From Acidobacteriaceae bacterium (lineage in GTDB: Bacteria; Acidobacteriota; Terriglobia; Terriglobales; Acidobacteriaceae), in assembly GCA_030040425.1 (NCBI GenBank), contig JASHTS010000077.1, positions 1 to 61,451 on the forward strand: a DNA stretch of 61,451 nucleotides, written 5' to 3'. Position 1 is the stretch's first letter. The number at the start of each line of letters is the position of its first letter. Below the pieces are notes generated by a model that saw only the letters and a program-made list of their open reading frames with translations, had not been told where the DNA came from and did no database searches. The position numbers and the translations under genes were made by a program. Of the stretch, positions 50,902-51,391 are shown piece after piece.

Positions 50902-50929
50902 AAACCCTCAGCACGCCCGCTGAGGGTTT
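50902..50929 (+). terminator. rho-independent terminator of rplS
   Basis: An 11-bp stem AAACCCTCAGC (50902-50912) / GCTGAGGGTTT (50919-50929), loop ACGCCC, followed by T and CGTTTG. Confidence 0.88.
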
Positions 50930-51010
50930 TCGTTTGTGCATAGGAAATGTTTCGGCTTGCAGATCGATCTCGTTTACGGGCCAACGCAAACGAGGAAAGA
51001 TCAAAACGAG

Positions 51011-51043
51011 CAAAGGCCCCGGGTTATCAGTCCGGGGCCTTTG
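51011..51043 (-). terminator. rho-independent terminator between rplS and the minus-strand tRNA
   Basis: A 12-bp perfect stem CAAAGGCCCCGG (51011-51022) / CCGGGGCCTTTG (51032-51043) with a 9-nt loop. On the minus strand it is followed by CTCGTTTTG, so it would end a transcript coming from the tRNA at 51231; it can also back up rplS. Confidence 0.75.
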
Positions 51044-51056
51044 CATTTCAGGGACT

Positions 51057-51084
51057 CCAGATCACTGGAAGCCGTCTGCGAAAC
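51057..51084 (+). repeat. inverted partial copy of the tRNA D-arm and anticodon loop
   Basis: On the plus strand CCAG-ATCA-CTGG (51057-51068), AA, then GCCGTCTGCGAAAC (51071-51084) repeat, in inverted orientation, the D-hairpin, 2-nt joint and 14 nt of anticodon arm of the minus-strand tRNA at 51143-51231 (match at 51191-51204). The following bases do not close an anticodon stem and no acceptor or T-arm is present, so this copy is not a working tRNA. Confidence 0.7.
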
Positions 51085-51142
51085 TTACAAAAAGCTTATC
51101 ACACCGGCAGTTGCCCGTCAAATCCTGTGGTCGAGCATCCTA

Positions 51143-51231
51143 CTGAGGGCAAGGGAGTTGAACCCTAATGGCTGATAAGGCCACTCGACCGTTTCGCAGA
51201 CGGCGCCCAGTACCCACTGGTAATACCCTCC
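51143..51231 (-). tRNA. candidate allo-tRNA (8/4 cloverleaf, anticodon GCG)
   Basis: An 89-nt class II tRNA fold read on the minus strand. Acceptor GGAGGGTA (51231-51224) faces TGCCCTCA (51151-51144): 7 pairs plus a terminal G-A mismatch. D-arm CCAGT-GGGT-ACTGG has a 4-nt loop as in tRNA-Sec. Anticodon arm GCCGT-CTGCGAA-ACGGT carries GCG. The variable arm is AGTGGC-CTTATCA-GCCATT, and the T-arm AGGG-TTCAACT-CCCT has only 4 bp, with a perfect T-loop. The discriminator is G (51143), preferred by SerRS; CCA is not encoded. This 8+4 layout fits allo-tRNAs; a pseudo-tRNA is the alternative. Confidence 0.6.
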
Positions 51232-51391
51232 AGGCGCAATTGTCTACGATCGAGTCACCTTACACCTGAAAGTCCGCGATAGAGCAAATGAATTCGACTT
51301 CAAATCCGCTTTTAGATTAGGAGCGGGATTTCCGAGGGTTTCGCCGCGATAGACGGCTCGGAATCGCCAAGCTGTTCTTATACTCGAAGAC

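Follow-up and report, generated by a model that had tools for sequence, protein, structure and literature searches.

Among the 8/4 allo-tRNAs (Mukai et al. 2017), which include representatives from Acidobacteria, GCG and GUC are among the commonest anticodons (PMC7609411), and in E. coli serine was incorporated at Leu codons by 8/4 and 9/3 allo-tRNAs from S. bohemicum (PMC7609411). The idea that such molecules could take part in a toxin-antitoxin system has been raised in a review of allo-tRNAs for the UAU class only (PMC7609411). Toxin-antitoxin loci controlled by RNA are themselves well described: in hok/Sok and aapA/IsoA the full-length transcript is inert because of long-range pairing, processing of its ends leads to refolding, and an antisense RNA with its own promoter targets the active form (PMC4147584, PMC6733600). 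In the type VIII system CreTA, CreT sequesters a tRNA, while CreA acts through a CRISPR effector on the promoter (PMC8501985).

The role of allo-tRNAs has been open since their discovery, and the combination of a cognate antisense RNA with a predicted self-inhibiting precursor offers a testable answer, namely that these tRNAs may be regulated as dangerous molecules. The locus considered here lies in a window of 61,451 nucleotides (the whole stretch of DNA analysed) from an Acidobacteriaceae bacterium, between rplS and rnhB and on the opposite strand, and it probably represents an RNA-only toxin-antitoxin-like module whose regulated, and likely harmful, product is a tRNA. The pairing architecture that joins the tRNA, the antisense RNA, the leader and the trailer was established computationally; its elements in the window are as follows.

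51257..51262, minus strand: -10-like box TAAGGT of the allo-tRNA transcript, lacking a good -35 box (weak promoter)
51232..51251, minus strand: 5' leader, complementary to the 5' strand of the anticodon stem and to the anticodon loop
51143..51231, minus strand: 8/4 allo-tRNA, anticodon GCG at 51195-51197, discriminator G, no encoded CCA
51129..51142, minus strand: 3' trailer, whose AGGATGCTCGACC is complementary to the 5' strand of the variable arm and to the 3' strand of the anticodon stem
51116..51121, minus strand: -35 box TTGACG of the antisense RNA
51093..51098, minus strand: -10 box TAAGCT of the antisense RNA, after a spacer of 17 nt
51005..51084, minus strand: whole antisense RNA gene, ~80 nt (match to the antisense RNA model R2 at 51010-51084, E 4.4e-20)
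51063..51084, minus strand: antisense segment, complementary to tRNA columns 21-42 over 14 nt exactly and over 21 nt at 90%
51056-51069, minus strand: small hairpin, its start overlapped by the antisense segment
51010..51044, minus strand: 13-bp perfect hairpin, presumed terminator of the antisense RNA, kept in relatives

A sequence-only reading of this DNA had proposed an 89-nt minus-strand fold at 51143-51231, and every stem and loop of it was recovered: an 8-nt acceptor with 7 pairs and a G.A top pair, a 5-bp D-stem with a GGGT loop, the anticodon loop CTGCGAA, a 6-bp variable arm and a 4-bp T-stem with the loop TTCAACT. Its assignment to the 8/4 allo-tRNAs with anticodon GCG also held, as ARAGORN called a tRNA-Arg(gcg) at 51144-51230, the tRNA-Sec model (RF01852) gave 43.1 bits against a cut-off of 47 (E 2.3e-7, 536 bases) and the cloverleaf covaries, although the interval that it had marked covers the tRNA and leaves out the leader, the trailer and the downstream antisense RNA gene. 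The general tRNA model of Rfam did not reach its cut-off with the window gene, and the single-sequence fold was mildly better than shuffles (z -1.7). Among 32 aligned relatives 97.3% of cloverleaf cells are paired, with 89 double-changed cells against 27 in shuffles; the covariation that the sequence-only reading had asked for in the acceptor and T-stem is thus present, and in alignment A4 helices 1 and 5, which make up the 8 + 4 acceptor branch, have 98.8 and 99.2% of cells paired. With tRNA-Sec the gene shares the extended acceptor branch, the long variable arm and the 43 bits; identity with tRNA-Sec was rejected, since the score stays below 47 bits and the anticodon is GCG, not UCA, and true tRNA-Sec genes are present separately in the genus, where they lack the antisense element. 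Judged by its 8/4 branch, long variable arm and non-serine anticodon, the window gene is a genuine allo-tRNA. The mismatch at the top of the acceptor, also pointed out earlier, is real and confined to the window copy (1/44 loci), with G-C in the sister genome G098; the window tRNA may therefore be partly decayed while its G098 sister is intact.

RF01852 also drew true tRNA-Sec and ordinary Ser and Leu tRNAs in the genus, and relatives were therefore collected with two other models. The tRNA covariance model R1 was run on 80 genomes of the genus and recognized clear orthologues in 14 of them, a single copy in each, including one in G098 at the same rplS-rnhB site, where the sequence-only reading had advised looking for orthologues. 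The broader model R3 added 13 further loci from several families in 399 genomes of the class, giving 44 loci together with the 31 of the first set. When 396 genomes drawn from the whole phylum were searched, the window's genome and G146, of the same family, were the only ones with matches at E 1e-11 or better. A DNA pattern applied to the genomes of ~85,000 species matched 33 stretches, almost all of them in MAGs of Acidobacteriota, with peat, bog and soil as frequent sources; MAGs also make up many of the genomes sampled throughout. Two of the 33, in Demequina (L091) and Desulfobacteraceae (L121), were set aside as chance matches that R1 does not recognize. Within subclades the chromosomal sites are stable (ccmB-ccmC, rplS-rnhB and nei). 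An explanation by mobile elements was rejected: there were 0 matches in viral contigs, phages and plasmids, and no conserved protein gene was found among the neighbours of the allo-tRNA loci.

Over the 44 loci the anticodons are GCG, GTC, GAG, GAT, TTC, GAC, GCC and ATC, and none is a serine anticodon. Serine charging of this class is nevertheless plausible because the discriminator is G in 42/44 loci and the variable arm is long. U33 is replaced by C or G in 12/44 loci, so that decoding may be weak in some of them. The sequence-only reading had suggested that the window tRNA may read Arg CGC codons; as a conserved function this fails, because orthologues differ in anticodon, also where they share a single site, and because those 12 loci lack U33.

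The stretch 51000-51280 folds far better than its shuffles (z -5.8) because a 21-nt inverted repeat ties the anticodon arm (51191-51211) to 51064-51084. About 60 nt 3' of the allo-tRNA and on the same strand, the antisense segment begins 8 nt past the promoter TTGACG-17-TAAGCT and is followed by the small hairpin and the 13-bp terminator hairpin, and this succession of sigma70-type promoter, antisense segment and hairpins therefore points to a small RNA gene that would be transcribed in the same direction as the tRNA. The segment, at the 5' end of this RNA, is a reverse complement, 21-22 nt long, of the 3' strand of the D-stem, the 5' strand of the anticodon stem and the anticodon loop, and the duplex of tRNA and antisense RNA is predicted at -45 kcal/mol; folded together the two RNAs reach -92.4, compared with -73.0 separately. 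No earlier report of this antisense RNA was found in the open-access literature. A separate strong hairpin (AAACCCTCAGC/GCTGAGGGTTT) at 50902-50929 of the window, 3' of rplS, is probably the rplS terminator.

Such an antisense RNA lies directly downstream of the tRNA in 44/44 allo-tRNA loci of this class in Acidobacteriota, and it is specific to its own neighbour: the complementarity score averages 43.7 for cognate and 27.0 for non-cognate combinations, and 0/20000 random pairings were as good, in permutations that ignore the relatedness of the loci. An artefact of relatedness is argued against by anticodons that change at one site and in divergent families. In the 31 loci of the first set, own flanks scored 43.7 and shuffled flanks 19.3, while 84.3% of cells are paired in the proper register and 33-38% when it is slid. 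Pairs 17 and 18, which involve letters two and three of the anticodon, have each changed on both sides in 15/31 loci, and neither is left unpaired in any locus. At the orthologous ccmB-ccmC site the anticodon is GAT, GAG or GAC depending on the species and the antisense RNA tracks each of them, and in G146 and G430 three paralogous tRNA/antisense pairs coexist that are mutually orthogonal. On the other hand, 27 ordinary tRNAs, Ser and Sec included, scored at most 29 and have no such element. The antisense gene also keeps its own signals, with promoter scores of at least 8 in 36/44 loci (6% of shuffles), TTGACA-like promoters whose -10 box mostly ends 4-8 nt ahead of the antisense segment, and, in G075 and G349, a terminator of unrelated sequence beside a perfect antisense end.

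Since the antisense segment repeats part of the tRNA exactly, in inverted orientation, at many loci, it could be imagined that the two arms are merely kept alike by template switching or conversion, with no selection and no meaning at the RNA level. Such an origin is hardly credible here: in core pairs 9-19 G-U cells outnumber mismatches (12 vs 6), as RNA pairing predicts, the leader, the trailer and the antisense RNA are distinct from one another and pair in different registers, promoter and terminator are retained, the latter even where it is unrelated in sequence (L052, L129), and nothing alike is seen at ordinary tRNAs. The view of the sequence-only reading, in which a plain allo-tRNA inserts serine at Arg CGC and all else is incidental, agrees with the intact cloverleaf and the serine-type features, but with a cognate antisense gene at all 44 loci, a variable anticodon, frequent loss of U33 and the G.A top pair in the window copy it has become very improbable. 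It overlooked the antisense gene, the leader and the trailer, and judging by these elements the tRNA is a regulated molecule and not a free decoder.

Regulation appears to extend to the precursor. The 20 nt 5' of the tRNA carry a shorter antisense of the same anticodon loop, which in the window takes the form of a leader (TCGTAGAC) that pairs with tRNA columns 32-39, with GCGCC lengthening the hairpin towards the D-stem, and the 22 nt 3' of the tRNA carry an antisense of columns 43-54 with up to 12 perfect pairs (L142). Each of the two is cognate to its tRNA (0/20000 permutations, kinship of the loci being ignored), and together they permit a competing two-hairpin fold in which the acceptor strands are separated. 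When the energy of the precursor split into two hairpins was compared with that of the cloverleaf fold, the mean difference was +0.6 kcal/mol with own ends, +5.7 with swapped ends, +7.2 with shuffled ends and +9.7 for the bare tRNA; the two-hairpin fold is lower in energy at 18/44 loci and within 3 kcal/mol at 29, and for the window precursor it is better by 8.1 kcal/mol (-8.1). These modelled energies support a bistability of the precursor that is specific to its own leader and trailer. Promoters of the tRNA itself score 6.65 over the 44 loci, against 5.54 in shuffles.

The antisense RNA also occurs by itself. Model R2 gave 20 strong matches in the genus, 12 beside an allo-tRNA and 8 solitary (L061, L067, L069, L070, L073, L074, L075 and L077), the latter with promoter, antisense end and terminator intact, while 0/44 loci have an allo-tRNA of this class without antisense RNA. 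Four of the solitary genes (L061, L069, L070, L074) share a GAG-type end, GTTTCTCAGGCGGC, at different sites. In G100 the orphan lies between rnhB and rplS, as the pair does in the window, and in G009 before nei, as at L049 and L053; the simplest reading of orphans at allo-tRNA sites is loss of the tRNA from a pair whose antisense RNA was retained. No allo-tRNA of this class was found in G004, G009 and G013, which are 96-100% complete. That the antisense RNA stands alone and the tRNA never does is as expected if the tRNA is the harmful partner; the intact antisense end of the orphans, in turn, may mean that they have another job, and it is possible that they are anti-addiction copies or serve some other function. 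One further locus (L009/L094, G023:C285) has a deletion that took away the 3' half of the allo-tRNA together with the 5' half of the antisense RNA, so that the remaining 5' tRNA half runs directly into the antisense terminator.

The eight solitary genes, as well as the loss of U33 in 12/44 loci, would also suit an arrangement in which regulation is chiefly the task of the antisense RNA, and the allo-tRNA is a stable decoy, shaped like a tRNA, that titrates this regulator off mRNA targets. We regard this as improbable, because a decoy would need neither the conserved acceptor, T-arm, T-loop and discriminator nor an autoinhibitory leader and trailer, and because fixed mRNA targets would forbid the antisense end to drift with each tRNA. 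Moreover, a search of four orphan genomes for second targets of the orphan antisense end gave no full-length one, and matches elsewhere were no commoner than with a reversed-pattern control.

The module favoured here, with the tRNA as its harmful product, could work as follows. The allo-tRNA precursor would be produced inert through pairing of its leader and trailer, and cleavage by RNase P together with 3' trimming would let the cloverleaf form by refolding. Once mature, and probably serylated, the tRNA would cause Arg, Asp, Leu, Ile, Val, Gly or Glu codons to be mistranslated as serine, to the detriment of the cell. An abundant antisense RNA would start pairing at the exposed anticodon loop and then invade the anticodon and D stems, thereby inactivating the tRNA, which would be freed once the antisense RNA is exhausted by stress, phage infection or loss of the locus. 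The scheme would resemble that of hok/Sok or aapA/IsoA with the toxin mRNA replaced by a tRNA, and these sequences suggest an RNA-only switch, with a tRNA as the dangerous partner, in some Acidobacteriota soil bacteria. The lack of association with mobile elements or plasmids, unlike many toxin-antitoxin loci, counts against a module of this kind. Together with the stable sites within subclades and the strong selection on tRNA structure, it is in keeping with a regulated adaptive mistranslation in which a beneficial stress tRNA, inserting serine at selected codons, would be held back by the same leader, trailer and antisense RNA until needed, with no addiction and no killing. This alternative is nevertheless unlikely, as specific decoding would hardly tolerate GAT, GAG and GAC anticodons at one ccmB-ccmC site, only 14/80 genomes of the genus have the tRNA, and it is the tRNA that disappears from sites where the antisense RNA persists.

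Compared with the systems described so far, the toxin-antitoxin-like module shares with the known 8/4 allo-tRNAs the 12-bp acceptor branch split 8/4, the long variable arm, non-serine anticodons and the occurrence in Acidobacteria, while a dedicated antisense RNA and an antisense leader and trailer go unmentioned in the review (PMC7609411). With hok/Sok and aapA/IsoA it would have in common the proposed precursor logic, and it has an antisense RNA with its own promoter, here predicted from sequence; unlike in those systems, the regulated RNA is a tRNA rather than the mRNA of a small membrane toxin, and the antisense gene does not overlap its target but follows it on the same strand. Complementarity to the target and an own promoter, as in the antisense RNA of type I systems, make it a candidate antitoxin; type I identity was rejected, because the target is a tRNA with a covarying cloverleaf, no conserved protein gene is present at the loci and no protein toxin is thus involved. 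The likeness to CreTA consists in an RNA toxin (a candidate role here) that acts on translation through tRNA function and in an RNA antitoxin; as expected of type VIII, of which the module is a candidate member, the putative antitoxin RNA is present wherever the putative toxin RNA is (44/44), with the antisense RNA alone in 8 places and the tRNA alone in none. Unlike in CreTA, it is a tRNA that would act as the toxin, and the predicted antidote base-pairs directly with this tRNA, with neither CRISPR nor a protein partner. The chances are slightly better than even that this is the first toxin-antitoxin system with a tRNA toxin that is serine-charged, mistranslating and born inactive and whose antisense RNA coevolves with the anticodon. 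If so, tRNA would join the list of toxins, with its anticodon arm under RNA-only control, the diversity of allo-tRNA anticodons would be explained by antisense specificity rather than by decoding, and an orthogonal on/off switch would become available for allo-tRNAs in genetic code expansion.

Other allo-tRNA-like genes were noted in related genomes (L025, L055, L057, L059, L130, L133 and L134), mostly of the UAU class (TTATAA loop), and no antisense partner was found for them in the genomes examined here. The 200 nt upstream of L025 contain a partial direct copy of the anticodon and variable region of its tRNA, and TTCTCAATTTTGAGAA inverted repeats lie immediately upstream of both L025 and L059. 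At L042 and L048 a small helix-turn-helix ORF, resembling the HigA antidote and matching Pfam HTH_3 below the cut-off, lies between the antisense RNA and ccmC.
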